From positions 2,810,743-2,874,742 of the forward strand of contig NZ_CM001436.1 of NCBI RefSeq assembly GCF_000243255.1: a stretch of 64,000 nucleotides of DNA. Reading direction: 5' to 3'. Below are positions 39,003-58,432 of the stretch, piece by piece; the stretch's first letter is position 1, and every line of letters begins with the position of its first letter. Source of the DNA: Methanoplanus limicola DSM 2279. GTDB lineage: Archaea; Halobacteriota; Methanomicrobia; Methanomicrobiales; Methanomicrobiaceae. The position numbers were made by a program, and so were the translations under genes. The notes under the pieces were generated by a model. That model had not been told where the DNA came from. It made no database searches and worked only from the letters and a program-made list of their open reading frames with translations.

Positions 39003-39028
39003 TAATTTCTGTCCAGAGTCTCCAACAA
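39003..39028 (-). repeat. inverted copy of the array's 26-mer promoter element
   Basis: The reverse complement of this stretch begins TTGTTGGAGACTCTGGACAG and is identical over 26 bases to the element upstream of the plus-strand cassettes. It points to the secreted protein at 38923, and lies about 80 bases before its ATG. The hairpin leader that follows the plus copies is absent here, so the 26-mer is a separable unit. Confidence 0.85.
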
Positions 39029-39198
39029 AGACACTTTCTCTCAGGAATAATTAAGCTATAGCGCACAAACAAGCACAAATGAGAGATAATCCAACAAGAC
39101 ATATTCGCCATACAACATAATACAAACCACATACTGCCACAAGTTATACATTAAAACTCACTGCGCAGATTCACCCACAAAGTGTAGAAATCCTCGCC

Positions 39199-39481
39199 TT
39201 GTTGGAGACTCTGGACAGAAATTACTTATAACAATATTTAGAGATATAAAAAAACGGCATAAAAGACTGAAGAGAAGAGAAACTAAAGGCCACAAAACGG
39301 ACATTAGACCTGAAGGCTCCTTACTCTTCAGCAGTTTCAGATGCCAGCCATAACAGCAGGCAGTACTAATTAATTAGCTGCATTATTGCAGATTAAGGTT
39401 TGCATGCCGGTTGTTCTTAGAACCTAGGTTTGCCAGTTTGAGTAAAACCCTCCAGGCAAACTTAAGATGGAGACGAAAAAC
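39199..39481 (+). repeat. type I leader, copy A
   Basis: 26-mer (39199-39224), TATA-like TTACTTATAAC directly after it, then the conserved leader with CTGAAGAG/CTCTTCAG hairpin arms, the CTGCATTATTGCAG mini-hairpin and the GGTTTGCATGCCGGTTG block near its end. Copy A also carries an extra inverted repeat (39423-39434 with 39455-39466) between that block and the gene. It is shared with copies B, C, F, G and H. Confidence 0.85.
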
Positions 39482-40828
39482 ATGAACGCAAAGAAAGGAG
39501 TGCGGGCGTTGAGCCTGCTTTTGGTAATTGCACTTGCCGGGGCAATGTTCGTTCCGGCTGTTAGTGCGGAGAACAATGAATCTAAAATGGAACAACATCT
39601 CTTAATTGATGGAATGACTAACATTAATGTCCTTAACGCTCAAAAAACAGAGGATCTTATTGCATCTGGCATCCAATCACCAGAAGAACTTACAATTCCT
39701 CAAATCATAACAAAATATGACATGATTACTTTTGACATCCCTGATATCAAAAATGAACTTGAAAATTTTGAAAGCCTATATATTACAATTGGGAATCAGA
39801 AGTATTCCATGAAATTAACAAAAGCTGATTTCAGTAAAGTTAAAGATAATATCGAATCATATTACGGCACCCTTAATGGAATAGAAAATAGTGAAATCTT
39901 CCTTACAATTTCAGATACGGTAATTGTAGGTAGTATCTCCATCGATTCAGAGACATTCTACGTTAAACCAGTTGAACCAAGAAAGCGGGTTTCTTCTGAA
40001 AAACCAGTTTTACACATAATCTATTCATCCAATTCTGTAAATCAGGAAAAACCAATAAAAATCGATGACGGTACTTTAGAAACTCCTATAATAAAAGATA
40101 CAAAGGAATTAATTTCTTCAAATGATGGATTATCTCAGGAGTCTCGCTCAGTAGACTCAACAAAACAATGGACCACAGTTAACATACTAATAACAACGGA
40201 CAATCAATTCTATTTAGATGAAAGTGATTGGAAAGCTACAGCAGAAGATATAATTAATACTGCAAACAGTCAATCATCCTTCGGTAGGGATGACGTTCAG
40301 GTTTCCCTGTGTGTTGTAGCATACGATGATTCAAAACGAATGGATCTGTCAAATGACCCAGATATCACAAGCGAACCATTAGGGACATTTTATGAACATT
40401 TTGATAATAACTACCTAAATGCACGTTATGCAGATATTGCTCTATATCTAGGAGGATACAATGCTGATGGTGGAAGTCAGGGCCTGGCATGGGGATTTGG
40501 AAACGGACCCTATTGGGGACAGTGGGCGTGGTCCCAAATGGTTTACGACGACCCGCTTTATACGGGGACGGTTCATGGTCGGCGTTGTATAAGCATTCAT
40601 GAATTAGGACATATCTTTAATGCAGACCATGAAAATTCAGCAGGAACTAACAGAGCATATGGTTGGTGGGATCCTTTGCCAAAACATACTGTTATGTGGA
40701 GTGACTTTATTGAGGCATATAATGTATATGAATATTCATCAATAGATTACCATGGGGAGGCTACACGCAACAACGCCTTGGCTATTAGGAATGCAAAAAG
40801 CACAGTTGCAACTTATAGGAATAGTTAA
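39482..40828 (+). CDS. secreted metzincin-like metalloprotease, array copy A
   Basis: The array signal peptide (KKGVRALSLLLVIALAG, ending VSA) is followed by a propeptide-like domain (about 30-180; QIITKYDMITFDIPDI, NQKYSMKL, YGTLNGIENSEIFLTIS) and a protease domain with H373-E-x2-H-x5-H (HELGHIFNADHE) and a Met-turn-like VMWS. The position that is Gly in classic metzincins is Asn. I chose the ATG at 39482, which has GGAG nine bases upstream and matches the starts of the other copies; an ATG at 39467 is also in frame. The small anchored partner follows after 20 bases. Confidence 0.85.
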   Translation: MNAKKGVRALSLLLVIALAGAMFVPAVSAENNESKMEQHLLIDGMTNINVLNAQKTEDLIASGIQSPEELTIPQIITKYDMITFDIPDIKNELENFESLYITIGNQKYSMKLTKADFSKVKDNIESYYGTLNGIENSEIFLTISDTVIVGSISIDSETFYVKPVEPRKRVSSEKPVLHIIYSSNSVNQEKPIKIDDGTLETPIIKDTKELISSNDGLSQESRSVDSTKQWTTVNILITTDNQFYLDESDWKATAEDIINTANSQSSFGRDDVQVSLCVVAYDDSKRMDLSNDPDITSEPLGTFYEHFDNNYLNARYADIALYLGGYNADGGSQGLAWGFGNGPYWGQWAWSQMVYDDPLYTGTVHGRRCISIHELGHIFNADHENSAGTNRAYGWWDPLPKHTVMWSDFIEAYNVYEYSSIDYHGEATRNNALAIRNAKSTVATYRNS

Positions 40829-40848
40829 CTATTTCTATTTTTTTAATC

Positions 40849-41238
40849 ATGAAAAATATAAAAAAAACCCGGAAAAAGGCAATTGCTCTCATCGCAGCAT
40901 TCTGTATCATTTCTGTTGCAGTAATTGGTTCATATGTTCTATATCATCACTTATTTACACCTGATACGGTTTTTTTCGCAGGAGCTTATCCTTTTGAAGA
41001 GACGGAATTAAACCCGGACTATGTTATTCTCAATATAAGTGATTCCGATTTCGAGCAATATCCCGTTCTAAGAGAGCTGGTATCTGATCCCGAAGGCGGC
41101 CATATTACATTCAGTCACTTTGAATGGGATTATGATGAAATTCAGGAATTCAGGGACATCTACTGCGTTAAAAGAGAAGTCAACAGGTATGTCTTCTGGA
41201 ACGATACATATTATCAGATTGTCATCGGGCAGTCATGA
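40849..41238 (+). CDS. small membrane-anchored partner protein, copy A
   Basis: A 129-residue protein: basic start, one membrane helix (AIALIAAFCIISVAVIGSYVLY), then an extracytoplasmic domain. The array-wide partner signature is V-I-L-N-I-S-D-S-D-F-E-Q-Y-P-V-L-R-E-L here, with a Tyr-rich end (DTYYQIVIG). Similar proteins follow the proteases of copies B, C, F and G. Function unknown; inhibitor, anchor or protease-immunity factor are the reasonable ideas. Confidence 0.75.
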   Translation: MKNIKKTRKKAIALIAAFCIISVAVIGSYVLYHHLFTPDTVFFAGAYPFEETELNPDYVILNISDSDFEQYPVLRELVSDPEGGHITFSHFEWDYDEIQEFRDIYCVKREVNRYVFWNDTYYQIVIGQS

Positions 41239-41256
41239 GAGTATGAGATTTAGTAT

Positions 41257-41405
41257 GATCCAAGAAGAGGCCGGAGTTATACAAAAGGGGGAGGAGGAGA
41301 TACACACTCGAAGAGATTTCCGCAAGGAAGGAGTTTGACGTGGAGTTTAATTCGTGGTTGGCTGAGGGTGAGGAAATGAGAGAATACATCTCCTTCATGA
41401 AGTAG
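41257..41405 (+). pseudogene. orphan ORF remnant
   Basis: An open frame of about 48 codons, with no start codon, ending at TAG 41403-41405: it reads YTLEEISARKEFDVEFNSWL then AEGEEMREYISFMK. The charged, helical composition looks protein-like but the 5' end is missing. Probably the tail of a deleted gene; family not recognised. Confidence 0.3.
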
Positions 41406-41577
41406 ATTCAGGCATAGCGCAGGAAGAAAACCGGCGACCATATGCAGTTTTTACACGAAAAATTCCAAAAACATTGTTTTGCACAGATTCAATAAAATGA
41501 CAGGGTACATCAATAAAATATTTTTTTCAACTTGGACAAATCCTTTTCTCGGCAGTAATTGTATATTACGCCTGAAT

Positions 41578-41615
41578 TGAACACCTGTTCCGTTCGACAA
41601 TGAACACCCGTTCCG
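41578..41615 (+). repeat. pair of imperfect GAACA-NN-TGTTC palindromes
   Basis: TGAACACCTGTTCCG (41578-41592) and TGAACACCCGTTCCG (41601-41615) are 14/15 identical direct repeats 23 bases apart; each is a palindrome or near-palindrome. They lie in the gap before cassette B. They could be a paired operator or the end of a lost mobile element. Confidence 0.5.
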
Positions 41616-41681: not shown

Positions 41682-41921
41682 TTGTTGGAGACTCTGGACA
41701 GAAATTACTTATAACAATATTCAGAGATATAAAAAAACGGCATAATAGACTGAAGATAAGAGAGCCTATAGGCCGCAAAACGGACATTAGACCTGAAAGC
41801 TCCTTACTCTTCAGTAGTTTCAGATGCCAGCCATAACAGCAGGCAGTACTAATTATTTAACTGCATTATTGCAGATTAAGGTTTGCATGCCGGTTGTTCT
41901 TAGAAACTATGAGGTACAACT
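41682..41921 (+). repeat. type I leader, copy B
   Basis: 26-mer at 41682-41707, TATA-like TTACTTATAAC, hairpin leader, and the GGTTTGCATGCCGGTTG block, ending ACTATGAGGTACAACT directly before the ATG (GAGGT is the ribosome-binding site). From this block through the signal peptide it is nearly identical to copy F. Confidence 0.85.
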
Positions 41922-43317
41922 ATGAAATTAAAGAAAGGCATGCGGGCCTTAAGCCTGCTATTGATAATGGCACTGCTGACGGCGATGCTTGTTCCGGTTG
42001 TTAGTGCTGAGGAAAAAAATCCTGTGAAAGTTAACCAGAATAATCAAAAAGCAATTTTTGAACTGTGTGATTATACTCACGAATTTAAAACACAGGTCTT
42101 AGCCGAAAGTAAAACAGCAGATGCACTGGCTGTTGAATATGGTAAGTTAAACATTCCATCCACCATTAAAAAATATGATATTGTTCAGTTCAGTGAAGTA
42201 AGCATTAATCAAAATCAAAAAAACTCATTAAAAGTAAAAATTTATGATAAAGAATATACTATGAATCTTGAAAGGATGAACTTTGAAAATATTGATGATG
42301 GGATCGATTCATATTCCGGAAGCATTGATGGATTAGACAATTCTGTTACAATATTTACATTTGGCAAAAATCTGGTCCATGGCACAATTCAGTTTCAGGA
42401 TGAGATTATCTTTATTGAACCTGTACAAAACAGAGAATACGCAACGAAAACTGCAATGCCGTTGCATATAATATATTCTTCAAAGGATATGATACAGCCA
42501 AGTGAATCTGAAATTGCTAAATTGGAAAAATTATCTTCTGAAAGATCAAAGACAACAAAAATTAATTCTCCTTCAGATTTATATGGTGTGCCAGTATCAT
42601 TAGATTCAGTTAAAGCTTCTAAAAGCTGAGAATCAATATATGTTCTTGTAGCTACAGATGATGAATAATTATGAGCTTGAGTCAAACTGGGTATCTTCCG
42701 CACAGAGTTACATGGCTCAGGCAGCATACCAGTACCAAAGATCAGACATAGATGTGTTCCTGAATGTTGTAGAGTATGATGCATCAAAAAAGGACATTTT
42801 ATCAAGTAATGCCAATACATACAGAAGAATGAATGAGCCTTTAGATTTATTTAAAGATATTTTTGAGACATCATACCTGAATAATAAAAATGCTGATGTT
42901 GCAATTTATCTTGGAGGTAACGATATGATTGGTTCCGCTCAGGGTCTGGCATGGGGATTTCAAGCATACCTTGACGGATATTTAGAACATTGTCGTTACG
43001 CATGGTCACAAATGGTAGATGATTCTGACACAATAGATCTTTACGATGGTTCATACCATGCCAGAGTGTACTGTATTCTTCATGAGATGGGACATGTATT
43101 TTTCGCAAATCACGAAAATTCAGGAGGCACGAATCAGGCATATGTATGGTTTGAATCTTTAATCATTCCAAAAAACACGGTTATGTGGAGCATATATAAA
43201 GGAAGTATTACTACCCAATGTGAATATTCATCACCAAGCTATCATGGAGATTCCAATCATAATAATGCAGGATCTATTAGTTTAGCAAAGAGCTATGTAG
43301 CAGACTTTTGTGTATAA
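41922..43317 (+). pseudogene. metzincin-like protease, array copy B, broken by a stop and a frameshift
   Basis: The first part (41922-42629) has the array signal peptide and the propeptide domain, then TGA at 42627. The homologous protein continues in the same frame (ESIYVLVATDDE) until about 42661, where a frameshift moves it to the frame read from 42658 (YELESNWVSSAQSYMAQAA and on), ending at 43317. The zinc motif HEMGHVFFANHE and the Met-turn-like VMWS are in the second part. Two independent lesions make a pseudogene more likely than recoding. Its partner gene downstream is intact. Confidence 0.8.
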
Positions 43318-43422: not shown

Positions 43423-43785
43423 ATGTCAAAAAAATATAAAATCGCCATATCTGCAATTCTATTACTTTTAATCTTTGCTATATCCTGCATACTGATAATA
43501 GGTTTCATAGGATCGAGTGGATCAGGGGGAAAAATGCAGCTTAGCGAGATTCCTGAAGAAAAACTAGACACGATTATGGCTCCCACAATTGAAATTTCGG
43601 GCGCAGATTTTAAAAAATATCCTGAATTGAAAGAACTGTTTTACAATATAAACACGAGTAGTGGTGAATTCGTCAGCGAAATCTATGTCAGGCCCGGGAG
43701 ATACGGGGAGATTTATCATGAGTATGTACCGGGTATTTTACACTACAATGAAAGCTATTATACAATTCTGGCTATGGTTCCATAG
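43423..43785 (+). CDS. small membrane-anchored partner protein, copy B
   Basis: A 120-residue protein with an N-terminal helix (IAISAILLLLIFAISCILIIGFIG) and the partner signature TIEISGADFKKYPELKEL, followed by a Tyr-rich C-terminus (HYNESYYTILAMV). It has its own A+T-rich upstream gap of 105 bases after the broken protease. It survives although its protease is inactivated. Confidence 0.72.
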   Translation: MSKKYKIAISAILLLLIFAISCILIIGFIGSSGSGGKMQLSEIPEEKLDTIMAPTIEISGADFKKYPELKELFYNINTSSGEFVSEIYVRPGRYGEIYHEYVPGILHYNESYYTILAMVP

Positions 43786-44138: not shown

Positions 44139-44421
44139 TTGTTGGAGACTCTGGACAGAAATTACTTATAACAATATTCAGAGATATAAAAAAACGGCAT
44201 AAAAGACTGAAGAGAAGAGAGCCTATAGGCCGCAAAACGGACATTAGACCTGAAGGCTCTATACTCTTCAGCAGTTTCAGATGCCAGCCATAACAGCCGG
44301 CAGTACTAATTATTTAGCTGCATTATTGCAGATTAAGGTTTGCATGCCGGTTGCTCTTAGTACCTAAGTTTGCCAGTTTGAGTGAAACCCTCCAGGCAAA
44401 CTTAGGATGGAGACGAAAAAC
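44139..44421 (+). repeat. type I leader, copy C, with clearest hairpin
   Basis: 26-mer at 44139-44164 and TATA-like box, then a 15-pair stem: 44207-44224 pairs with 44254-44271 (CTGAAGAG/CTCTTCAG and AGAGCCT/AGGCTCT, separated by a 3x3 internal loop). A second perfect 12-bp inverted repeat, CCTAAGTTTGCC (44363-44374) and GGCAAACTTAGG (44395-44406), ends directly before an ATG at 44407. Confidence 0.85.
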
Positions 44422-45750
44422 ATGAATGCAAAGAAAGGATTGCAGGCGTTGAGCCTGCTATTGATAATGGCACTCATTGGGACGATGTCCGTTCCGGCGG
44501 TTAGTGCGGAGGAAGAGAACGACAAAGAATATTTATCAACTCCTTTGATTATTTTTGAAGGATCTACAAAGCAGATAGATGCTAGTCAAATAAAATCAGA
44601 TTTAAAAATTGACAATACTATTGAGAAATATGATCTGGTATCATTTGATATTCCTGAAATTAGAAATGAAATTTTTAAAAAAGGGGAATTACCAGTTTGT
44701 ATTCAAGGTAAGCAATATTCAATGATATTGAATGAATTACTTGTTAATGATAAAGGAGTGAATCCTGAAACACATTCATACAATGGTTATCTCAAAGGTG
44801 TTGATAATAGTAATATTGTTCTTACTATAAGTGAATCTGTATTTCTTGCAAGCATAATTATAAATGGAGAAGAATATTGTATTGATAGTTTATCTGCAAA
44901 AGATCCATCCGGAGATAAGTATCACATTGAATATATGGTAAAAGATATCAAAATCGAGGGAAATTACCTTTATGGTATTGAAGATTATCTCGCACATTCC
45001 ACAATGTCTGATGATGAGTTGAAAATTAGAAGTGAAGAGGCTAAAATTGAGGAAAAAGAAAAGGCTACAAAAAGTATTACTTATGTAAGAATACTTGTTA
45101 TGACAGATGCCAAATGGATTTATGATGAGCCAGACTGGCAATCTAAAGCTCAGCTTATAATTGCTCAGGCCAATAACCAGTTTGGAAGATCTGATATTCA
45201 ATTAAATCTAATTGCCACATATGATTCATCTAAAGCAAGTGAACTTGCTGCTGATGCCCAGAATCTTGTACAAAATCCATTAGACACCTTCATAAATCAC
45301 GTTGATGTAAGTTATCTGAACTCAAAATATGCAGATATTGCAGTATATCTTGGTGGTTATGACTGTACAAACCCAAACTGGGGTGTAGGTGCAACATGGG
45401 GATATGATGATAGTGATCCTTCAGATAGGAGATATGCATGGGTACAGATGGCTGATGATCCTTCTCCTTATGATCCAAATATTCATGACAGGACTGTAGC
45501 ATCACTTCATGAAATAGGACACCTGTTTGATGCTGATCATCAGGATGGAATGCAGGGTCCAAATCAGGAAAGTTATAACAGAGCATACCAGTGGAATTCA
45601 GGTTCAACAACACAGTCTGTTGTATGGGCGCCAATATTAAGAAGTACAAGTTATGAATATTCATCAAATGATTATAATGGAGATTATTACCATAACAATG
45701 CGCTGAGAATATATAATACCAGAAATGTTGTAAGGGATTATTATATCTAA
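44422..45750 (+). CDS. secreted metzincin-like metalloprotease, array copy C
   Basis: About 442 residues. Array signal peptide, propeptide domain (NTIEKYDLVSFDIPEIRNEIF, then GKQYSMIL and NIVLTISESVFLASI), then the protease: VRILVMTDAKWIYDEPDWQ opens the domain and H363-E-x2-H-x5-H (HEIGHLFDADHQ) is the zinc site. Asp stands where classic metzincins have Gly, and the Met-turn position reads VVW rather than VMW. It is the closest relative of copy G. Start chosen at 44422 (GGAG spaced nine bases); 44407 is the alternative. The partner gene starts 26 bases after the stop. Confidence 0.85.
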   Translation: MNAKKGLQALSLLLIMALIGTMSVPAVSAEEENDKEYLSTPLIIFEGSTKQIDASQIKSDLKIDNTIEKYDLVSFDIPEIRNEIFKKGELPVCIQGKQYSMILNELLVNDKGVNPETHSYNGYLKGVDNSNIVLTISESVFLASIIINGEEYCIDSLSAKDPSGDKYHIEYMVKDIKIEGNYLYGIEDYLAHSTMSDDELKIRSEEAKIEEKEKATKSITYVRILVMTDAKWIYDEPDWQSKAQLIIAQANNQFGRSDIQLNLIATYDSSKASELAADAQNLVQNPLDTFINHVDVSYLNSKYADIAVYLGGYDCTNPNWGVGATWGYDDSDPSDRRYAWVQMADDPSPYDPNIHDRTVASLHEIGHLFDADHQDGMQGPNQESYNRAYQWNSGSTTQSVVWAPILRSTSYEYSSNDYNGDYYHNNALRIYNTRNVVRDYYI

Positions 45751-45776: not shown

Positions 45777-46235
45777 ATGAAAAAAAATCGAATACTATCT
45801 GGTGTAATTGTGGCATTTATAATAATTACAGTCGGATTCCTACTTCTTTCTGATTTAAACAACAGTAATGTGTCTGAAATTGATATTATCAATACACCCA
45901 ATCCTGAAAAAACGGCAGCTGTTATACAAACTACAGAATCTACCCCTGCATTCCATGGTTATCACATGGAGCTGATAAATGTAAGTGAAAGCACTTCATG
46001 GAGGTATCCACAAAACAGCACTATTGAGGAGCTTGTCAGCCGGGGATATAAAAAAATTATTGTTACAGATAAAACTTTTGAGGAATACCCATTTATTAAA
46101 GAAATTCTTGAGCCAAAATATCTAACGACAAAGGCCGTTGAAGGTGAAGAAAAAGAGATTTTTTTTAAACAATTTTATGAAGTTACATTTAGGTATAAGG
46201 GCTATAATTACGTTATTGGCGCCTTTAAAAATTAG
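45777..46235 (+). CDS. small membrane-anchored partner protein, copy C
   Basis: A 152-residue protein with an N-terminal helix (GVIVAFIIITVGFLLL), a polar linker and the partner domain (KKIIVTDKTFEEYPFIKEIL, ending FYEVTFRYKGYNYVIGAF). It is very similar to the partner of copy G (54160), just as the two proteases are, so protease and partner were duplicated together. Confidence 0.75.
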   Translation: MKKNRILSGVIVAFIIITVGFLLLSDLNNSNVSEIDIINTPNPEKTAAVIQTTESTPAFHGYHMELINVSESTSWRYPQNSTIEELVSRGYKKIIVTDKTFEEYPFIKEILEPKYLTTKAVEGEEKEIFFKQFYEVTFRYKGYNYVIGAFKN

Positions 46236-46663: not shown

Positions 46664-46790
46664 GAGGCTCTCTACTCTTCAGCAGTTTCAGATGCCAGCC
46701 ATAACAGCCGGCAGTACTAATTATTTAGCTGCATTATTGCAGATTAAGGTTTGCATGCCGGTTGTTCCCGAAAAACTAAGAGTTACAACT
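46664..46790 (+). repeat. type I leader, truncated copy D
   Basis: Only the 3' half of the leader is present, starting at GGCTCTCTACTCTTCAG next to the MITE; 26-mer, TATA box and left hairpin arm are missing. It runs through GGTTTGCATGCCGGTTG to a mini-ORF at 46791. The promoter is therefore lost. Confidence 0.8.
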
Positions 46791-46931
46791 ATGAAATTAA
46801 AGAAAGACATGCCGGCCTTAAGCCTGCAATTGATAATGGCATTGATGACGGTGATGTTCATTCCGGCTGTTAGTGCTGTCGATACGGATTTTATTTCCCC
46901 CAACTATGCAGGAAAAATTATTCCGTTTTGA
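46791..46931 (+). pseudogene. truncated signal-peptide mini-ORF, copy D
   Basis: A 46-residue frame: array signal peptide (KLKKDMPALSLQLIMALMT, ending VSA), then a 17-residue tail VDTDFISPNYAGKIIPF. The same tail occurs after the signal peptides at 52277 and 54978. It is either the stump of a deleted cassette or a tiny exported peptide. A type II leader and a full gene follow. Confidence 0.6.
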
Positions 46932-47322
46932 GATAGGCGCAGTGATATTTTAGAGAGTAAAATCCAATATTTATTAAAAATAAGCCATCAGCGATGATTT
47001 TACAAAAACATTGTCACCCAAAATCTCCAAATCCCGGATATTGCTGTCAATATTACAATAACAGTTCAATGATGTGGTGAGAGGTCTATATATAGTCCTA
47101 CTTTCTACTTTTAACTGAGGAGTAACAAAGAGTGATCTTTTGATTAAACCTTACTAAAAAGTGGTAACTGACAGGAAAGAATAAGGGCCGTTTTAACCAA
47201 TCCAGTCTCCTTATCCTGCCCTGTTGTCTGCCAGTTATAGTCAACCGGCATTTATCTGATTTCACATTATTGTAAATTAAGGTTTGCATGCCGGTTGCTC
47301 TTAGAAAATATGAGATACAACT
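46932..47322 (+). repeat. type II leader, copy E
   Basis: About 390 bp that follow the mini-ORF and lead to the caspase-like gene. It has a TATA-like CTATATATAG (about 47087-47096), an AACTGACAGG...CCTGCCC...CAGTT hairpin region, and ends with GGTTTGCATGCCGGTTG and the ribosome-binding context shared with type I. Homologous copies are at 52415, 55116 and (shorter) 57474. Confidence 0.8.
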
Positions 47323-48021
47323 ATGAAATTAAAGAAAGGTGTGCAGGCCTTGAGCCTGCTATTAATAATGGCATTGATGACGGCGATGTTCGTTCCGGCT
47401 GTTAGTGCATACCAGGCAGATGCATATGGATTCAGTACAAATAACCCAAGTACCATAGATACAACGCAAACAGCATATTACGTAGATAATAAACTTGCTG
47501 CAATGGGCTATAATCCATCAGATCATCATTACAATAATAGAGCACTGGATGGATATAGTGAACTGGAAGATACCGATATTTTCTTCTTTAGTGGACATTC
47601 ATCTCCAGGGAGACTCCAGTTTGGAACAAACTCAGGAGGTAGTTTAACCTTTATCTTTGCTGACGGAGTTGTTTTACCAAGAATCAGTGAAATGCCTTCA
47701 AATCAATTGTATAATCTAAAACTGGCAGTATTTTTAGGATGTAATTCAGGTGAAGATGACGCAAATCTCGGAAATCTTGTAGAAGAAGCAAGAGGGAAAA
47801 ACGCAAAATGTGTTATAGGATTTATGGAAAGTGTCTCCTCCGGTCAGGCAGATTACTGGGCAAAAAAATTTTATGATCGGCTTGATAACAGAGAAACCAT
47901 CAGGAATGCTTTTGACGGAGCATGGCGGGATGTTGTCGGTTATTATGGAATTTTCAATGACGGAGGAATAGGTGATAAAACAATTGACGGGGATGAAAAT
48001 CAGATTATAGACTTATATTAA
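47323..48021 (+). CDS. secreted caspase-like (clan CD) cysteine peptidase-like protein
   Basis: A 232-residue protein with the array signal peptide (1-29) and one caspase-like domain. His92 in FFFSGHSSPG and Cys140 in LAVFLGCNSGEDD follow strongly hydrophobic strands, the arrangement of the clan CD His-Cys dyad; NAKCVIGF follows as expected for the next strand. No propeptide of the metalloprotease type is present. It is followed after 13 bases by a PepSY/YPEB-like protein. Relation to metacaspase, gingipain or CHAT families was not resolved. Confidence 0.7.
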   Translation: MKLKKGVQALSLLLIMALMTAMFVPAVSAYQADAYGFSTNNPSTIDTTQTAYYVDNKLAAMGYNPSDHHYNNRALDGYSELEDTDIFFFSGHSSPGRLQFGTNSGGSLTFIFADGVVLPRISEMPSNQLYNLKLAVFLGCNSGEDDANLGNLVEEARGKNAKCVIGFMESVSSGQADYWAKKFYDRLDNRETIRNAFDGAWRDVVGYYGIFNDGGIGDKTIDGDENQIIDLY

Positions 48022-49669: not shown

Positions 49670-49908
49670 TTGTTGGAGACTCTGGACAGAAATTACTTAT
49701 AACAATATTCAGAGATATAAAAAACGGCATAAAAGACTGAAGATAAGAGAGCCTAAAGGACACAAAACGGACATTAGACCTGAAGGCTCTCTACTCTTCA
49801 GCAGTTTCAGATGCCAGCCATAACAGCCGGCAGTACTAATTATTTAGCTGCATTATTGCAGATTAAGGTTTGCATGCCGGTTGTTCTTAGAAACTATGAG
49901 GTACAACT
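49670..49908 (+). repeat. type I leader, copy F
   Basis: 26-mer at 49670-49695, TATA-like box, hairpin leader (CTGAAGAT/CTCTTCAG arms, AGAGCCT/AGGCTCT) and the common 3' block ending ACTATGAGGTACAACT. From that block through the signal peptide it is almost identical to copy B. Confidence 0.85.
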
Positions 49909-51246
49909 ATGAAATTAAAGAAAGGCATGCGGGCCTTAAGCCTGCTATTGATAATGGCACTGCTGACGGCGATGCTTGTTCCGGTTGTTAGTGCTGAGTC
50001 TAATAAAAACTTAAGTGATCATATTCAGGAGAAGAAAAAAAACCCAATTATAAATATTGAAGGTATTTCAGAGATAATATCAGACATTCCTGAGAAAGAA
50101 TCACTAAATATTCCTGAAAACTTTGAAAAATATGAGTTACTCACCTTAGACATTCAGAAAATGCGTAATGAATTAGCAAACGGAAGAATGGTTCCGATCT
50201 GCATTGACGGCGTTTTTTATAAAATGAATCTAAGTGAGATAATGGTAAATGCTCCCGATGTAAAATCTCAAACACTTTCATATACAGGTCATCTTGAAAA
50301 CTCAAATAAAAGTGAAGTTGTTCTTACAATTAGTGAGCGGGTACTGATTGCAAGAATTAATGTAAATGGTATTGATTATGTAATTGAAAGTATACCCCAT
50401 AAAGAAAAATCCGGGAAAGTAATACATTATGCACACCGATCAAGTGATGTTAAAGAAGAAGGCGAATATCTATCCGGAACTGATGATTACCTTGCTCATA
50501 AAGAGTACTCTGCTGAAGAACTAAAAATAAGAGAAATTGAAGCTAAAACTGAAGAAGAGGAAATGGCTGTCAGAAGTGAAGTTGCTGTAAGAATTCGCAT
50601 ATTTACAGACGATCAATGGATTTCCGATGAACCGGACTGGCAGGCTAAAGCACAGGATATTATTGCAGAGCTAAACAATCAGTTCCAGAGATCTGATATA
50701 CAGGTACATTTCTATGCCCATTATGACACATCAAAGGCATCTGCACTATCAGGAGATATCAATCATATATCAAGACCATTTCAATCAATTATGGATCAGG
50801 TGTCCATAACTTATTTGAATAGCAATCATGAAGATCTGGCATTGTACTTAGGTGGTTACGATAGTACATATAATGCAGTTGGAGCAACATATGGATATGA
50901 CAGTCCATATCCAGATCAGAGAAGATATGCATGGGTTCAGATGAAAGATGATCCATCACTATATGACGGTGAGCATGAAGACAGAACAAAAGTAACCATA
51001 CATGAAATTGGTCATTTATTCGATGCAGATCATCAGCCAGGGCAACAAGGTCCAGGGCAGGAATCCTACAACCGTGCCTACCAGTGGACAGAACAGGGAA
51101 CCACCAAACAAACAGCTCTCTGGGCTCCATTTTTAAAGAGTAACACTTACGAAATCTCTTCAAATGACTACAATGGAGATTACTACCACAATAATGCTTT
51201 AAGAATATACCAGACAAGAAATGTAATTGCATCATATGTATGGTAA
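49909..51246 (+). CDS. secreted metzincin-like metalloprotease, array copy F
   Basis: A 445-residue protein: signal peptide (1-29, KLKKGMRALSLLLIMALLT, ending VSA), propeptide domain (FEKYELLTLDIQKMRNELAN, VVLTISERVLIARI), protease domain opening RIRIFTDDQWISDEPDWQ and zinc motif H365-E-x2-H-x5-H (HEIGHLFDADHQ). The Met-turn position reads TALW. The C-terminal SSNDYNGDYYHNNALRIYQTRNV block is shared with C and G. Secreted, with no C-terminal anchor. The partner gene follows. Confidence 0.85.
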   Translation: MKLKKGMRALSLLLIMALLTAMLVPVVSAESNKNLSDHIQEKKKNPIINIEGISEIISDIPEKESLNIPENFEKYELLTLDIQKMRNELANGRMVPICIDGVFYKMNLSEIMVNAPDVKSQTLSYTGHLENSNKSEVVLTISERVLIARINVNGIDYVIESIPHKEKSGKVIHYAHRSSDVKEEGEYLSGTDDYLAHKEYSAEELKIREIEAKTEEEEMAVRSEVAVRIRIFTDDQWISDEPDWQAKAQDIIAELNNQFQRSDIQVHFYAHYDTSKASALSGDINHISRPFQSIMDQVSITYLNSNHEDLALYLGGYDSTYNAVGATYGYDSPYPDQRRYAWVQMKDDPSLYDGEHEDRTKVTIHEIGHLFDADHQPGQQGPGQESYNRAYQWTEQGTTKQTALWAPFLKSNTYEISSNDYNGDYYHNNALRIYQTRNVIASYVW

Positions 51247-51271: not shown

Positions 51272-51687
51272 ATGAAAGTAAATGTATCGGCAATATGTGG
51301 GATAATTTTGACTTTGGTCATAATATCACTTTTTTTTTATTGGACAGCACAACGCCAGTCAGTTCATCCAATGATGAAACAAATTTATCTGATAACAGAG
51401 TAGCTTCACATTTCCTGACAATATTTAACATTACCAGCGGAGAATTCACTATAAGCAATCCACATTTAAGTGCTAACCCTACAAGAGAAGATCTGAAAAA
51501 TGAGGGTTATAGAATTATTATAATCAATGAAACATTTATCAAAGAAAGATCTGCTCTATTCCGCGCTTTTGAAAATGATGGCTTGTCTCCAATATATCAG
51601 GAAGAGCGAAATGAAACATTTGCTCTGCAGGGTGCGATATTAGATTACAACGGATCATTATATCATGCTTTGATAGGCTCAACTTAA
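51272..51687 (+). pseudogene. small membrane-anchored partner protein, copy F, frameshifted in a T-run
   Basis: From ATG 51272 the frame gives a normal start and membrane helix (MKVNVSAICGIILTLVIIS) but ends early; the partner domain continues in another frame (LLDSTTPVSSSNDET, then GYRIIIINETFIKERSALF, ending LYHALIGST). A run of nine Ts at 51340-51348 joins them; ten would restore the frame. The ATG at 51295 gives only an unanchored product. Sequencing error, true mutation or slippage cannot be separated here. Confidence 0.65.
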
Positions 51688-52037: not shown

Positions 52038-52276
52038 TTGTTGGAGACTCTGGACAGAAATTACTTATAACAATATTCAGAGATATAAAAAAACGGCATA
52101 ATAGACTGAAGAGAAGAAAACCTTAAGGCCGCAAAACGGACATTAGACCTGAAGGATCTCTACTCTTCAGCAGTTTCAGATGCCAGCCATAACAACCGGC
52201 AGTACTGATTATTTAGCTGCATTGTTGCAGATTAAGGTTTGCATGCCGGTTGTTTTTAGAAACTATGAGGAAAAAT
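52038..52276 (+). repeat. type I leader, copy G
   Basis: 26-mer at 52038-52063, TATA-like box and hairpin leader, leading not to a full gene but to the mini-ORF at 52277. Very similar to copy H over its whole length. Confidence 0.85.
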
Positions 52277-52414
52277 ATGAGAGTTAAAGGCATAAGGGCT
52301 TTAAGCCTGATATTGATAATGGCACTTGTCGGGGCAATGTTCGTTCCGGCTGTTAGTGCTGTCGATACGGATTTTATTTCCCCCAACTATGCAGGAAAAA
52401 TTATTCCGTTTTGA
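52277..52414 (+). pseudogene. truncated signal-peptide mini-ORF, copy G
   Basis: A 45-residue frame: array-type signal peptide (MRVKGIRALSLILIMALVG, ending VSA) plus the 17-residue tail VDTDFISPNYAGKIIPF. It has a promoter, leader and ribosome-binding site (GAGG) and could be expressed. Either a cassette stump or an exported small peptide. Confidence 0.6.
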
Positions 52415-52804
52415 GATAGGCGCAGTGACATTTTAAAGACAACAATCCAACATTTATCAAAAATAAGCCATCAGCGATGATATTACAAAAACATCGTCAC
52501 CCAAAATCTCCTAATCGCAGATATTGCTGTCAATATTACAATAACAGTTCAATGATGTGGTGAGAGGTCTATATATAGTCCTACTTTCTACTTTTAAATG
52601 AGGGGTAACAAAGAGTGATCTTTTGATTAAACCTTACTAAAAAGTGGTAACTGACAGGAAAGAATAAGGGCCGTTTTAACCAATCCAGTTTCCTTATCCT
52701 GCCCTGTTGTCTGCCAGTTATAGTCAACCGGCATTACCTGATTTCACATAAACTCAGATTAAGGTTTGCATGCCGGTTGATCTTAGAAACTATGAGGTAC
52801 AACT
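52415..52804 (+). repeat. type II leader, copy G
   Basis: The leader between mini-ORF and protease G. TATA-like CTATATATAG lies at about 52569-52578. A hairpin can form from AACTG (52649-52653), CAGG (52655-52658) and ATAAGG (52664-52669) with CCTTAT-CCTG (52692-52701) and CAGTT (52715-52719). It ends with the common block and GAGGTACAACT before the ATG. Confidence 0.8.
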
Positions 52805-54130
52805 ATGAAATTAAAGAAAGGCGTGCGGGCCTTGAGCCTGCTATTAGTAATGGCATTGATGACGGCGATGCTTGTTCCGGCTGTTAGTGCTGATAAGATA
52901 AATTACAACGATAATTTGTCAATTCCCCTAATTAATATTGAAGGAACAACAGAAAAATTAGAAACTGATCAAATAAAAGCAGATCTGAAAATCCAGAGCA
53001 CTATTGAAAAATATGATCTGGTATTATTTGATATTCCTAAAATCAGAGATGATATTTTTAAGGATGGTGAATTAGCTGTTTGTATTGATGGTAAAAATTA
53101 TTCAATGACGTTAAAGGAATTACCTGTTAATGATAAAGGTGTAAATCCGGATACACATTCATACACAGGTAATCTCAAAGGTGTAGAGAATAGCAATTCT
53201 GTATTGACAATAAGTAAATCAGTACTAATTGCAAGTATAATATTAAATGGAGAGGAGTATTGCATAGACAGTTTATCAGCTACAGATTCCTCCGGTAATA
53301 AGTACCACATCGAGTATAAGGTTAATGACGTAAAAATCGAAGGCAATTATATTTATGGTATTGAAGATTACCTTGCCCATACTGAAATGTCTGATGAAGA
53401 GATGAGAATCAGAAATGAACAGGCCAATATTGAGGAAGAAGAAAAAGCATCAAGGAGTACTGCTTATGTAAGAATACTTGTCATGACAGATGCAAAATGG
53501 ATATATGACGAACCGGACTGGCAAGTAAAAGCTCAAAATATAATATCTCAGGCAAACAATCAGTTTGGAAGATCTGATATTCAGATATATTTACTTGCCA
53601 CATATGATTCATCTAAAGCAGGTGAACTCGCTACTGATGCCCAGAATATAGTTCAAAATCCACTGGATACATTTATTAGTCATGTTTCACCGAGTTATTT
53701 AAATTCAAAATCTGCAGATATTGCTATTTATCTTGGAGGTTATGACTGTACAAATCCAGACTGGGGCGTAGGGGCGACCTATGGATATGACAGTAACAAT
53801 GCAACAAAAAAGAGATACGGATGGTCACAGATGGCTGATGATCCATCCCCATATGATGCAATTCACCATGACAGAACTGTAGCAACACTTCACGAAATAG
53901 GACACCTCTTTGATGCCGATCACCAGGATGGTATGCAAGCAGCAAATCAGGAAAGTTATAACAGAGCATATCAATGGAATTCAGGATCCATCACACAGTC
54001 TGTTGTATGGGCCCCAGTATTAAGAAGTACAAGTTATGAATATTCATCTAATGATTACAACGGGGATTATTATCACAACAATGCTCTGAGAATTCATCAG
54101 ACCAGAAATGTTGTTGCTTCATATTTCTAA
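52805..54130 (+). CDS. secreted metzincin-like metalloprotease, array copy G
   Basis: A 441-residue protein close to copy C along its whole length: signal peptide, propeptide domain (STIEKYDLVLFDIPKIRDDIF), protease domain opening VRILVMTDAKWIYDEPDWQ and zinc motif H363-E-x2-H-x5-H (HEIGHLFDADHQ), Met-turn position VVW. It differs from C mostly at scattered positions, unlike the sharp boundary seen between unrelated cargoes. The partner gene (54160) starts 29 bases after the stop. Confidence 0.85.
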   Translation: MKLKKGVRALSLLLVMALMTAMLVPAVSADKINYNDNLSIPLINIEGTTEKLETDQIKADLKIQSTIEKYDLVLFDIPKIRDDIFKDGELAVCIDGKNYSMTLKELPVNDKGVNPDTHSYTGNLKGVENSNSVLTISKSVLIASIILNGEEYCIDSLSATDSSGNKYHIEYKVNDVKIEGNYIYGIEDYLAHTEMSDEEMRIRNEQANIEEEEKASRSTAYVRILVMTDAKWIYDEPDWQVKAQNIISQANNQFGRSDIQIYLLATYDSSKAGELATDAQNIVQNPLDTFISHVSPSYLNSKSADIAIYLGGYDCTNPDWGVGATYGYDSNNATKKRYGWSQMADDPSPYDAIHHDRTVATLHEIGHLFDADHQDGMQAANQESYNRAYQWNSGSITQSVVWAPVLRSTSYEYSSNDYNGDYYHNNALRIHQTRNVVASYF

Positions 54131-54159: not shown

Positions 54160-54618
54160 ATGAAAAGAAAACAAATAATTACCGTCGGAATTATAGCAAT
54201 TATAATCATTTCAGCAACATACATATCTATTTTAAATTACAATTCCTGGAATGAGTATAATGAAATAAATCTAAATACTACAGTTTCTGAAAAAATTGAC
54301 AATGATAAAACAACAACAGAACCTACCCAGGCAGTACATGGACAGATTATGGTCTTGGTTAATGTAAGTGAAAGTAATTCATGGATGTATCCACAAAACA
54401 GCACTATTGAGCAGCTTGTCAGTTTTGGATATAAAGAAGTCGAAGTAAGTGATGAAACCTTTGAGGATTATCCGTTTATAAAAGAAATTCTGGAACCAAA
54501 ATATATGACAACAAAAGCTGTTACAGGTAAAGAAAAAGAGATTTTTTTTGAAAAGTTCTATGGTGTCACATTTAGATATAAGGACAACAATTATGTTATT
54601 GATTGTATTCTAAATTAG
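54160..54618 (+). CDS. small membrane-anchored partner protein, copy G
   Basis: A 152-residue protein with an N-terminal helix (IITVGIIAIIIISATYISIL) and the partner domain KEVEVSDETFEDYPFIKEIL, ending FYGVTFRYKDNNYVIDCIL. Closest to the copy C partner. Same gene spacing as in C, which supports a functional pair with its protease. Confidence 0.75.
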   Translation: MKRKQIITVGIIAIIIISATYISILNYNSWNEYNEINLNTTVSEKIDNDKTTTEPTQAVHGQIMVLVNVSESNSWMYPQNSTIEQLVSFGYKEVEVSDETFEDYPFIKEILEPKYMTTKAVTGKEKEIFFEKFYGVTFRYKDNNYVIDCILN

Positions 54619-54740
54619 TCATTAATTAAATGAAGGTATTTGCTGTCAATACGACTTAATTTTCCAACCATCTAATAGAATTACTGGAAATATTTACAAA
54701 ATTGCGCAGACATAACCACAAAGTTCAGAAATCATCACCT

Positions 54741-54977
54741 TGTTGGAGACTCTGGACAGAAATTACATATAACAATATTCAGAGATATAAAAAAACGGCA
54801 TAATAGACTGAAGATAATAGAGCCTAATGGCCACAAAACGGACATTAGACCTGAAGGCTCTTTATCATCAGCAGTTTCAGATGCCAGCCATAACAACCGG
54901 CAGTACTGAGTATTTAGCTGCATTATTGCAGATTAAGGTTTGCATGCCGGTTGTTTTTAGAAACTATGAGGTAAAAT
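54741..54977 (+). repeat. type I leader, copy H, with compensatory hairpin changes
   Basis: 26-mer at 54741-54766, then a TATA-like box with one change (TTACATATAAC). The leader stem 54808-54825 / 54855-54871 keeps pairing although both arms changed (GATAA on the left, TTATC on the right, where other copies have CTCTTC). It leads to the mini-ORF at 54978. Confidence 0.85.
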
Positions 54978-55115
54978 ATGAGAGTTAAAGGCATAAGGGC
55001 TTTAAGCCTGATATTGATAATGGCACTTGTCGGGGCAATGTTCGTTCCGGCTGTTAGTGCTGTCGATACGGATTTTATTTCCCCCAACTATGCAGGAAAA
55101 ATTATTCCGTTTTGA
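54978..55115 (+). pseudogene. truncated signal-peptide mini-ORF, copy H
   Basis: The 45-residue frame is identical in protein sequence to the mini-ORF at 52277: signal peptide plus VDTDFISPNYAGKIIPF. The surrounding DNA is almost identical too, so recent duplication or gene conversion explains the identity without selection on the peptide. Confidence 0.6.
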
Positions 55116-55506
55116 GATAGGCGCAGTGACATTTTAAAGACAACAATCCAACATTTATCAAAAATAAGCCATCAGCGATGATATTACAAAAACATCGTCA
55201 CCCAAAATCTCCTAATCGCAGATATTGCTGTCAATATTACAATAACAGTTCAATGATGTGGTGAGAGGTCTATATATAGTCCTACTTTCTACTTTTAAAT
55301 GAGGAGTAACAAAGAGTGATCTTTTGATTAAACCTTACTAAAAAGTGGTAACTGACAGGAAAGAATAAGGGCCGTTTTAACCAATCCAGTTTCCTTATCC
55401 TGCCCTGTTGTCTGCCAGTTATAGTCAACCGGCATTACCTGATTTCACATAAACTCAGATTAAGGTTTGCATGCTGGTTGTTCCAGAAAAACTAAGAGTT
55501 ACAACT
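55116..55506 (+). repeat. type II leader, copy H
   Basis: Nearly identical to the copy at 52415-52804 (TATA-like CTATATATAG, hairpin region, common 3' block), but the last bases before the gene read GTTCCAGAAAAACTAAGAGTTACAACT, like the DNA before mini-ORF D rather than that before protease G. This mosaic end suggests recombination. Confidence 0.8.
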
Positions 55507-56754
55507 ATGAAATTAAAGAAAGACATGCGGACCTTAAGCCTGATATTAGTAATGGCATTGCTGACGACGATGTTCATTCCGGCGGTTAGTGCTGAAATTA
55601 AAATACCCAATGAACCAGAGGAAGTTACTTCGGTAACTAAAGATACTTCTTTGGAATTACCAGATTTTCAGCCAAGTATAATGGATGAATTATCATATGA
55701 AGACGAAAAGAATTTTATTAAATATCTTACTCCAACCCCTCCACTAAAAGATTCAGACACTGTTCAAATAATTGTCCCAAAAAAATGGTTATTACAGAAT
55801 GATGAAGATAAGAGTCAGGAGATTATTAAATTTACAATCCCATCGAGTTGGTTAAAAGAAGCTGTGGTAAATGAAAGTGAACCTGTTGTTTCACTACAAA
55901 TACCAAAAAAGATGTTAGAACTTGATAATTCAAATTCAGACCCAAATATGATTACAGTTTCTTATCCTCTGGAAATGTTTAATATCTACCAAAACATGAG
56001 TGATCTGAGAACAAATAAAATAAATAGTAAAAATGTAATATGTCCAACTAATAATCAACTACCAGGAAATCAGTCCAGTATTATTAATTTAAATGGTTTA
56101 GATGAAAAAAGCAGAGAGGTCAATAAAGCTACCTCCGCCTGGTATCATAGAAATACAAATTATGATGTTATAACAGTCTTTGGGATTATTAAACCAATTT
56201 CCTATTCTAATCAAGGAGAGACCTTTAGGAACTATAACGAGAGAGAAATTCGTCTTAATCGTGATGGCGATACCATCGAATTCATATCTGATTATATTGA
56301 TAGTGGTAATTCCTATATATGGACAGCAATATACGATGAACATTCATGGATAACCCCATGGAATTGGTTATTGCTAGACGTAACTGGAACTCTTCAACAA
56401 ATTGAATACCGTCTCTATATCAACAATGGGATCTATGATTTATGGCTAAAAGATACATCTACAGGCAATTGGTACCACAATTCTTATGATGATAGTGATA
56501 ATCCTTCAACAAAAGTTGAGTGGCTTGCAGGCACAACTGAAGTTGATACTGTTGGTGGAATCTCAGAATACTTTAGAACAGAAACAAATCCAATCAGAGA
56601 TGAATGGACATATGCAAATAATGACTGGCATCGTCCAAAAACAACTTTTAATTGGAATAGTTATAACGCCGATGAGCAATATGTTTATATCAATGCCCGG
56701 TGGGACGGATCTGATAGGCTCAACACCCAACATATTGCAGGAACATACTATTAA
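55507..56754 (+). CDS. secreted protein of unknown function, array cassette H
   Basis: A 415-residue exported protein with the array signal peptide (KLKKDMRTLSLILVMALLT, ending VSA). The N-terminal half contains three similar blocks (IIVPKKWLLQND, FTIPSSWLKEAV, LQIPKKMLEL), an internal repeat. The C-terminal half is rich in Trp and Tyr (NYDVITVFGIIKPISYSNQGE, WTAIYDEHSWITPWNWL, RLYINNGIYDLWLKD) and looks like a beta-sandwich. No protease motif. Function unknown; a surface or carbohydrate-binding role is a guess. A lipoprotein gene follows. Confidence 0.7.
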   Translation: MKLKKDMRTLSLILVMALLTTMFIPAVSAEIKIPNEPEEVTSVTKDTSLELPDFQPSIMDELSYEDEKNFIKYLTPTPPLKDSDTVQIIVPKKWLLQNDEDKSQEIIKFTIPSSWLKEAVVNESEPVVSLQIPKKMLELDNSNSDPNMITVSYPLEMFNIYQNMSDLRTNKINSKNVICPTNNQLPGNQSSIINLNGLDEKSREVNKATSAWYHRNTNYDVITVFGIIKPISYSNQGETFRNYNEREIRLNRDGDTIEFISDYIDSGNSYIWTAIYDEHSWITPWNWLLLDVTGTLQQIEYRLYINNGIYDLWLKDTSTGNWYHNSYDDSDNPSTKVEWLAGTTEVDTVGGISEYFRTETNPIRDEWTYANNDWHRPKTTFNWNSYNADEQYVYINARWDGSDRLNTQHIAGTYY

Positions 56755-56839
56755 ACACCGCACATATTTATTTTTTAGAATTATCGAAATTAATGAGTTA
56801 TAAACATAGAAATATTTTCAATTGAAAGATGGACGACAT

Positions 56840-57472
56840 ATGAAACCCAACATAAAAATAATATTTATCTGGATATCTATTGGCCTGCTTATTGCAGCAG
56901 GAGTGATTACTTCTGGATGCTCCAATGAGAATGCTTCAAAGGTACCTGTAATCACAGACACATTGCATGCACCGGAAACAACACCTGTACCAGGAATTTC
57001 AAAACCACCTTCTTTGACTGTCGGTGCCATTCCGGAAATATCCTCATACCTGCCGGGAGAAACAGTTCAGGTCAGAATTGCGTTTAAAAACTCTGGTGAA
57101 AATCCGGTGCAGATAAAATCATTTCCACCTGAAATATCTGTAAATAACCCGTCTTTTGGTGTTGTACGCAGTTATCCCTGTGGCAGCGATACAATTACTA
57201 TTGAATCCGGTGGAAGTTATGACTATATCATGAAGTGGGATCAATGCAACAATGATGAAAAACAGACAGAACCCGGCATATACTCTGTTGAAATATTAGA
57301 TGTTTCATGTGTGGAGAATGGCAATGAAATACTGTATTACTCAGAAGGAAGAGATGTCGCACAGGTTGTCATAGAATATCCGGGTGGGGCTGTCAATGAC
57401 GGTTTAATTTTTCCCACATCTAAAGAAATTACTGAAAATATTTACAAAGCGAGACAACTGTCTTCGATATGA
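56840..57472 (+). CDS. hypothetical lipoprotein, possible partner of cassette H
   Basis: A 210-residue lipoprotein: signal IFIWISIGLLIAAGVITSGC with lipobox Cys, a Thr/Pro-rich linker, then an Ig-like domain (SLTVGAIPEISSYLPGETVQVRIAFKNSGENPVQIKSF). I chose the ATG at 56840; a TTG at 56822 adds six residues. It occupies the partner position behind the cassette H cargo but is unrelated to the small partner family. Confidence 0.65.
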   Translation: MKPNIKIIFIWISIGLLIAAGVITSGCSNENASKVPVITDTLHAPETTPVPGISKPPSLTVGAIPEISSYLPGETVQVRIAFKNSGENPVQIKSFPPEISVNNPSFGVVRSYPCGSDTITIESGGSYDYIMKWDQCNNDEKQTEPGIYSVEILDVSCVENGNEILYYSEGRDVAQVVIEYPGGAVNDGLIFPTSKEITENIYKARQLSSI

Positions 57473-57473
57473 G

Positions 57474-57748
57474 AATAACAGTTCAATGATATAGTGAGAG
57501 TAAATTTATAATTCAATAGACTATTTTTAAATGGAGATGACATCAAAGGATTGCTCTTTTGATTAAATCTTCCTTAAAACAAGTTATTTGGTAACTGACA
57601 GGAAAGAATAAGGGCCGTTTAACCAATCCAGTTTCCTTATCCTGCCCTGTTGTCTGCCAGTTATAGTCAACCGGCGTTTACCTGATTTCACATCAACTCT
57701 GATTAAGGTTTGCATGCCGGTTGTTCTTAGAAAATATGAGGTACAACT
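57474..57748 (+). repeat. type II leader, copy I (shortened, diverged 5' part)
   Basis: Homology to type II starts at ATAACAGTTCAATGAT and is diverged until GGTAACTGACAGGAAAGAATA, after which it is near identical through the hairpin and the GGTTTGCATGCCGGTTG block. There is no 26-mer, type I leader or mini-ORF here. Confidence 0.75.
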
Positions 57749-58432
57749 ATGAAATTAAAGAAAGGCGTGCGGGCCTTGAGCCTGCTAATGGTTTTAGCAT
57801 TTCTAACAGCGATGTTCGTTCCGGCTGTTAGTGCTGAAAATATAAATGCTGATAAATCAACTCAAATTAGTGATAATAAATTAGGAAATTTTTTTGCAAT
57901 GAAATCAAATGACGTTGTAAAAGCTTCAGAAGTAATTAATCTCGTAAATCCTAAATATTATCAAAATTTGACAAAAAATCAGAAAAAGGAATTTGAGAAT
58001 CTGGATGTATTCATTCCAGATATAAATGATCCAAAAATAACTATGGACTTCAATATATCTGCAAAAAAGAAAAACACTGATTCAAAAGGTGAATATTATG
58101 TCTGGGCTCATGTGACTGGATTTGTCGACAATGCATTTGTATGGTTAGGAATAGAAGGAGTAAATTATTTAGGATCACAGACTGCCGACATTATTATGCC
58201 ATCAATGGAAACATCAGCCACTCTTTTCCATCGAACCAACTCAAATTGGCTCCAGGAAGAGTATATAACTTCATCATCCACATATTGGAACTATGATGAG
58301 GCCATGTCAACAATGTGGAATCCAGATTCAGGAGATTACAGAACAACAGCAGTTATTTACGGAGTATTTCCAGCAGGATATGAACCTGCAAGTTATTGTG
58401 AAGTAGGATATTCTGGAATTATTTCAAAATGA
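57749..58432 (+). CDS. secreted protein of unknown function, array cassette I
   Basis: A 227-residue exported protein with the array signal peptide (KLKKGVRALSLLMVLAFLT, ending VSA). The mature part has a Lys-rich stretch and a compact C-terminal domain (YYVWAHVTGFVDNAFVWLGIEG, TSATLFHRTNSNWLQEEY, TTAVIYGVFPAGYEP). No family or catalytic motif recognised. Last cassette of the array. Confidence 0.7.
   Translation: MKLKKGVRALSLLMVLAFLTAMFVPAVSAENINADKSTQISDNKLGNFFAMKSNDVVKASEVINLVNPKYYQNLTKNQKKEFENLDVFIPDINDPKITMDFNISAKKKNTDSKGEYYVWAHVTGFVDNAFVWLGIEGVNYLGSQTADIIMPSMETSATLFHRTNSNWLQEEYITSSSTYWNYDEAMSTMWNPDSGDYRTTAVIYGVFPAGYEPASYCEVGYSGIISK

Follow-up and report, generated by a model that had tools for sequence, protein, structure and literature searches.

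Secreted-protein cassettes behind a common front end in Methanoplanus limicola: a putative protease effector-immunity arsenal

Bacterial polymorphic toxin systems (PMC3482391) combine a constant export part with exchangeable effectors, an adjacent immunity gene, orphan immunity genes and recombination at the junction. A similar layout was found in a tandem array of secreted-protein genes of Methanoplanus limicola DSM 2279, located in the 64,000-nucleotide stretch of DNA analysed here (the window; G000:C1:2810743-2874742, where G000 is the complete 3.2-Mb archaeal genome holding the array). Each cassette of the array consists of a front end (promoter, conserved element of the 5' untranslated region [5'UTR] and signal peptide [SP]), a secreted cargo and a partner gene behind it. 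A constant export module with variable effectors is thus present, though the module is cleaved off; a family-matched gene lies directly downstream, as judged by position and concordance, and has a putative immunity function; orphan immunity-type genes occur as well. Unlike in polymorphic toxins, the constant part comprises only promoter, 5'UTR and cleavable SP, nothing of which remains in the mature effector, and complete secreted proteins, most of them proteases, take the place of C-terminal nuclease-type toxin domains. The array is read here, with a probability of about two in three, as a regulated arsenal of secreted protease effectors that is exchanged horizontally, in which cognate inhibitors in the membrane confer immunity and the effectors are exported by means of the resident front end.

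In systems of the staphopain-staphostatin type, a secreted protease is encoded next to its cognate inhibitor, which is cytosolic, and no swappable front end or orphan island is known there. The array likewise contains proteases with neighbouring putative inhibitors, but its partners are membrane-anchored, the front end is common and orphan islands exist. For archaea, Makarova et al. 2019 (mBio 10:e00715-19) reportedly predicted polymorphic toxins and archaeocins. As described in two citing papers (PMC8416519, PMC12352652), these are also archaeal effector-immunity gene pairs, and DNase and RNase domains are given as the commonest toxin moieties among them (PMC8416519). The mostly proteolytic cargoes of the array would be set apart by that description, priority being uncertain. 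Bacteriocin- and halocin-immunity operons also pair a secreted antagonist with a membrane-bound immunity partner, whereas here the proteins have 200-450 amino acids and enzymatic domains, and many unrelated cargo families stand behind one front end. In conotoxins the SP is conserved and the mature part divergent. The same applies to aphid effectors (PMC7495047), and terminal reassortment of type III effectors joins a conserved 5' export module to divergent cargo. The array differs from all three in having a prokaryotic Sec-type SP and a linked partner gene moving with the cargo.

Eleven front ends were present between 39.2 and 57.8 kb of the window, eight with cargo genes (cassettes A to H) and three with a 17-residue peptide (stumps). 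These, like the cargo and partner genes, are located on the forward strand. Front end A (39199-39568) has the promoter element at 39199, a TATA-like sequence at 39243, the 5'UTR element at 39392 and the SP up to 39568. The others occupy positions 41682-42008 (B), 44139-44508 (C), 47083-47409 (D, TATA-like at 47088), 49670-49995 (E), 52566-52891 (F, TATA-like at 52571), 55267-55593 (G, TATA-like at 55272) and 57600-57835 (H). The SPs, of 28-34 residues, start at 39467, 41922, 44407, 46791 (stump), 47323, 49909, 52277 (stump), 52805, 54978 (stump), 55507 and 57749. Compared in pairs, the eight front ends with cargo had a mean DNA identity of 0.75-0.88 until the SA codon, 0.50 over the next 12 nt and 0.30-0.34 further on. 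An earlier reading of the sequence alone had claimed that the similarity stops at the predicted cleavage site, and the boundary at the signal-peptidase site was indeed sharp and not gradual. This sequence-only reading had also described five metzincin-like genes, one caspase-like gene, two unknowns and three stumps, which is correct (one of the metzincin-like genes is broken), while its count of nine frames plus a pseudogene was slightly off, there being eight cargo genes, including the broken one, and three stumps. The near-identical front ends with diverged cargo to which it had pointed were found at SP starts 41922 and 49909 (cassettes B and E). These are 100% identical over the 84-nt SP and 96.7% over 333 nt, while the cargoes have 23-36% amino acid identity. 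The 333-nt tract stops 3 nt beyond the SP, as expected from recent conversion.

Six of the 11 front ends have a promoter block in common (TTGTTGGAGACTCTGGACAGAAATTA..., followed 44 nt later by GATATAAAAA), and others have another TATA-like block instead, TATATATAG. Apart from cassette G, where one base differs, every front end of the array contains the 5'UTR element in its exact form, ATTAAGGTTTGCATGCC. A pattern search of the genome gave 17 copies, 17 of 17 at front ends and on one strand, and 0 matches to the reversed control pattern. The arms of the 5'UTR hairpin are complementary in most copies and mostly invariant, and compensation was hinted at in only two copies of genome G013 in a covariation check; an Rfam search of the array gave no credible match. 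In front ends A and C, the 5'UTR element is followed, ahead of the start codon, by an additional perfect hairpin, CTAAGTTTGCC...GGCAAACTTAG (39393-39466 and 44333-44406), and their SP start resembles that of the third 5'UTR type, as in mosaic front ends. Ten more front ends are present in the same genome, at 646-661 kb and 1138-1143 kb. A search of 28 genomes of the host's family, of the kind proposed by the sequence-only reading, revealed front ends in 11 other genomes from five other genera, with three 5'UTR types among them. The second type, TGACCAAATCATCG...CGATTTGGTCA, stands at the front ends of locus L027; in L034 (G025) and L037 (G011), from other genera, both of its arms are changed to match (CACATCATCG...CGATGTGG).

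Five of the cargoes are metzincins. Cargo A (39467-40828) consists of SP, ADAM-type propeptide and M12B-like metzincin (Pfam Reprolysin_5, 3e-8). Cargo B (41922-43317) is broken, its SP-propeptide frame (41922-42629) and catalytic frame (42658-43317) being split by one nonsense codon and one frameshift. Cargoes C (44407-45750), E (49909-51246) and F (52805-54130) complete the group. Metzincin profiles matched the ADAM17 prodomain (propeptide profile, E 1.1e-8) and snake-venom and ADAMTS catalytic domains; Reprolysin_5 was matched at 3e-8 and 6e-8, and H368, E369, H372 and H378 of the zinc motif HExxHxxxxxH are invariant. The glycine of HExxHxxGxxH is replaced by D or N in most members, and the Met-turn is absent in C, E and F. 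Cargo D (47323-48021) is caspase/CHAT-like with the His-Cys motif SGHSSPG...LGCNSG; its profile matches are weak and below cutoffs (Pfam DUF6345 0.003, CHAT 0.01; PDB CHAT 0.6), with both motifs present in the alignment. Cargo G (55507-56754) is an exported protein of unknown type with a beta-rich C-terminal region, which had no Pfam or PDB match and an uninformative single-sequence model (pLDDT 35); homologues occur at L059, L026 and L045. Cargo H (57749-58432), also an unknown exported protein, has a homologue in G017 behind a front end (L132:4154-4852).

Besides the metzincins, C39-like peptidases (L030, 3.6e-14; L055, 1.1e-9), a weak caspase/CHAT-like group, DUF6345 proteins (L026, 5e-39) and unknowns were found behind front ends. 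About 20 unrelated cargo clusters were obtained (single-linkage at 1e-5). Recognised toxin domains such as nucleases or pore formers were not among the cargoes, which are proteases or unknowns only. PADLOC profiles matched no known anti-phage defence system among them, NCBIfam gave no system and only weak adhesin-type matches, and metzincin C was not found in plasmid and phage collections.

Front ends grouped by genome and cargoes by cargo family. In cargo families occurring in several genera, the SP of each copy was closer to an SP of its own genome with unrelated cargo than to that of the cargo homologue, with one marginal exception. Across 11 metzincin cassettes, SP and cargo distances were uncorrelated (r=-0.07, p=0.69), and the SP distances did not correlate with those of the partner either. 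Cassette C was compared with its homologue in another genus (G013, L053:5714-7099, reverse strand). Starting at the cleavage codon, about 800 nt were 96-100% identical in DNA; the identity was 80-96% over the rest of the cargo and 68-94% across the partner, and then fell to background (about 40% past the partner stop). Upstream, the SPs were about 78% identical and the DNA beyond was near background. The first 260 cargo codons had 99.0% DNA identity, and because all 81 of 81 comparable 4-fold sites agreed, versus 109 of 219 in SecY of the same genomes, the transfer must have been recent. The pair of cargo and partner has passed between genera, and in either host it stands behind the resident front end. 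Two genomes of a further single genus (L060 and L069) have SP, cargo and partner at 98-100% DNA identity with unrelated flanks and different 5'UTR types. Exchange or homogenisation of front ends, which the sequence-only reading had deduced from the boundary, is borne out by these results, and the same cargo behind a different front end, for which it had proposed a search, was found.

Were the array a plain tandem duplication, in which cargoes diverge while purifying selection keeps the SP and front ends are not exchanged, the membership of five of the eight cargoes in one family and the conservation of the SP at the protein level in relatives would be easily understood. Such an origin is very improbable, and is already contradicted by the grouping of front ends, cassette C, the uncorrelated distances and the same cargo behind different 5'UTR types; in addition, unrelated cargo folds have front-end DNA in common including the upstream non-coding part, and orthologous cargo elsewhere carries the front end of that genome. 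Modular exchange is considered established with hardly any doubt. On both sides, the cassettes of the array adjoin front-end repeats as long as 300 nt, which may allow homologous replacement of cargo and partner, with foreign DNA or another cassette as the source. The sister species (SecY 99% identical in amino acids, flanks 86-93% in DNA) has 1.9 kb with one unrelated gene in place of the 22 kb at 37075-59133.

The partner gene had been overlooked by the sequence-only reading, and the exchanged unit is cargo plus partner. Partner A (40849-41238) is a small protein of the A3 family with an N-terminal transmembrane (TM) helix, a putative cognate inhibitor or immunity protein. Partner B (43423-43785) is intact; it was modelled at modest confidence (pLDDT 70.6) as a TM helix with an alpha/beta domain, and the model had no significant PDB match. 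Partner C (45777-46235) ends the transferred unit. Partner D (48035-48868) is an exported YcdB/PepSY-like protein (Pfam DUF4901 6e-4, below cutoff; PepSY 0.03). Partner E (51295-51687) has its TM-coding start in another frame ahead of a run of nine T, where start and body are joined (51272-51345) by a frameshift, phase variation or a sequence error. Partner F is located at 54160-54618. Partner G (56822-57472) is a lipoprotein weakly similar to the BsuPI (proteinase inhibitor) fold (Pfam BsuPI 0.055, below cutoff), and its family follows the G-type cargo family in four of four cases. Partner H (58533-59012) is a TPR lipoprotein (Pfam TPR_1 3.5e-17) with a homologue behind the H-type cargo of G017 (L132:5148-5594).

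Nearly all cargo genes have a partner gene behind them, and a gene closely behind the cargo was scored in 51 cases. In an earlier count, at least one hydrophobic membrane segment was present in 48 of 52 following genes versus 1 of 52 mature cargoes; taken alone this excess is weak, because 243 of 394 background genes of the same regions also have a segment or lipobox. Propeptide and catalytic parts were sorted on mature sequences without the SP. The concordance of families was the stronger observation. Pairs with the same cargo had the same partner family in 70 of 91 cases (5.3 expected; maximum 24 in 10,000 shuffles), and without the metzincins in 25 of 36 (1.3 expected). An A3-family partner adjoins 12 of 14 metzincin catalytic genes, and the combination also occurs without this front end in Methanocalculus and in a Methanosarcinales metagenome-assembled genome. 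Across the 11 metzincin cassettes, catalytic and partner distances correlated (r=0.87, p=5e-5).

Partners also occur alone. Of 33 A3 members, 21 have neither a module nor a metzincin gene directly ahead of them, and several stand in tandem islands without cargo. Such islands were found in the same genome at 1.084-1.094 Mb (L136) and in G013 (L137), G003 and G009 (L057, L068), G017 (L132) and G011 (L135). They hold TM-anchored homologues of the metzincin propeptide without a catalytic domain (E 1.5e-33 to 7.7e-7), two of which are fused to an A3 partner domain. L136 contains an A3 partner, two TM-anchored propeptides, a PepSY protein (7e-10) and a TPR lipoprotein; PepSY is a domain type occurring in peptidase propeptides. 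Interpretation of the 1.09-Mb genes as broken proteases marking pseudogenes beside A3 partners was rejected, as they are intact stand-alone propeptides. At L138 (G001:2535-2552 kb) and L139 (G000:560-576 kb), common orphan c19-c10 partner genes stand beside the c15 family, of which the sister species has five tandem copies.

In isolated form, the prodomain of ADAM17 inhibits this protease at nanomolar levels (PMC5159831), and orphan immunity genes occur in bacterial antagonism systems (PMC12247911, PMC9484751). The partners are read as immunity genes because orphan islands, stand-alone propeptides and the intact partner beside the broken B protease are the usual marks of such genes, and it is likely, judging from sequence, that they inhibit their proteases. 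Single-pass membrane anchors with exposed domains would also suit sensors or receptors activated by protease cleavage, and ADAM-type enzymes act as sheddases elsewhere. However, the retention of orphan partners without a protease, the fusion of stand-alone propeptides to a partner domain and the diversity of partner folds render shedding-type signalling improbable.

A pair of genes on the reverse strand precedes the array. The first (37745-38458, c1 family) encodes a membrane-anchored regulator with two winged helix-turn-helix (HTH) domains (Pfam HTH_HVO_0163_N 8e-16, HTH_24 9e-16), the second (38480-39034, c3 family) an exported protein without a Pfam family; upstream of the latter gene the promoter element recurs in inverted form. 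Homologues of the pair accompany 15 of the loci with cargo; the orphan islands examined had none. The pair may control the front ends. Coordinated expression, as proposed by the sequence-only reading, is plausible in view of the shared promoter block, the 5'UTR element restricted to front ends and the adjacent regulator; the pair itself, the ten further front ends, those of other genera and the absence in the sister species had been missed.

In the proposed arsenal, each two-gene cassette would encode a secreted effector, mostly a protease of one of several unrelated folds (ADAM-like metzincin, caspase-like, C39-like papain fold), along with a cognate partner anchored in the membrane, which would protect the producer by inhibiting or sequestering its own effector. 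All effectors would be expressed and exported by one resident front end, the stereotyped SP being removed on export. Front-end copies would provide homology for recombination, so that foreign cargo and partner land behind a local front end and are then amplified or lost, and a partner whose effector is lost or has not yet arrived would stay as an orphan immunity gene. The divergent regulator and its exported companion probably control expression. The earlier view of a varied export set was incomplete, as partner co-divergence, orphan islands and propeptide-type inhibitors point beyond it to an effector-immunity system.

Several points weigh against this interpretation. Binding and inhibition of proteases by the partners are predicted from sequence, and a target cell and a delivery route would have to be assumed. 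No structure significantly similar to the A3 fold was found, several partner families resemble no inhibitor, being multi-pass membrane proteins or lipoproteins, and some cargoes lack a recognisable enzymatic domain. Single-linkage clusters served to recognise the orphan groups, and generic lipoproteins are mixed in some of these clusters (c4-c7). Co-divergence of cargo and partner is also expected from co-inheritance, yet the equally linked SP shows none. A regulated protease set for processing of the own surface layer or peptide scavenging, with the partners as anchors, chaperones or housekeeping inhibitors against self-damage, would involve no antagonism. Proteases with membrane-bound regulators are common, the HTH regulator and the common 5'UTR point to a physiological regulon and no delivery apparatus was seen; but the accessory presence with absence in the sister species, rapid transfer between genera and the use of one front end by about 20 unrelated cargo clusters together with orphan partner islands are typical of conflict systems and not of core physiology, so that this explanation is rather unlikely. 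Antagonism between microbes by the arsenal is plausible and slightly favoured. Finely balanced is the further proposal of a hitherto undescribed archaeal weapons system, in which mobile protease-inhibitor cassettes plug by recombination into a species-specific regulated socket of promoter, 5'UTR and SP, and orphan membrane inhibitors, including tethered ADAM-type propeptides, serve as acquired defence against neighbours' proteases.

Other features of the array are a homologue of cargo D without a front end (48902-49618, forward strand) and the stumps. The former is 28% identical to D and has SFGSAS in place of LGCNSG at the catalytic Cys position, and is possibly a pseudoenzyme decoy. The stumps, each with front end, SP and 17-residue peptide, are located at 46665-46931 (open reading frame 46791-46931), 52038-52414 (52277-52414) and 54740-55115 (54978-55115). 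Five intact stumps have the identical peptide VDTDFISPNYAGKIIPF after the SP, the three in the window and those at L025:6882-7022 and L026:7516-7656; in each case a second front end follows about 0.5 kb downstream, and a frameshift interrupts a sixth copy (L026, near 933). Peptide pheromones were considered, as the 17-residue frame is invariant, yet the DNA past the stop codon is equally conserved and one copy is frameshifted, so that coding selection is not indicated. Instead of being cargo, the stumps probably belong to a double front end that was duplicated. Outside the array, 33635-33895 and 34218-34479 each match two places of the sister species in all-against-all fashion, with cross matches of 73-75%, which suggests a local duplicate.

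If the proposed reading is true, polymorphic effector-immunity arsenals would extend to methanogens, whose weapons would be secreted proteases and whose immunity would rest on propeptides or inhibitors tethered to the membrane. The array would be a clean case of an SP serving as an interchangeable socket which captures horizontally acquired effectors. Function prediction would be opened for dozens of pairs of hypothetical secreted and membrane proteins, and the specificity between cargo and partner would be directly testable with purified proteins.

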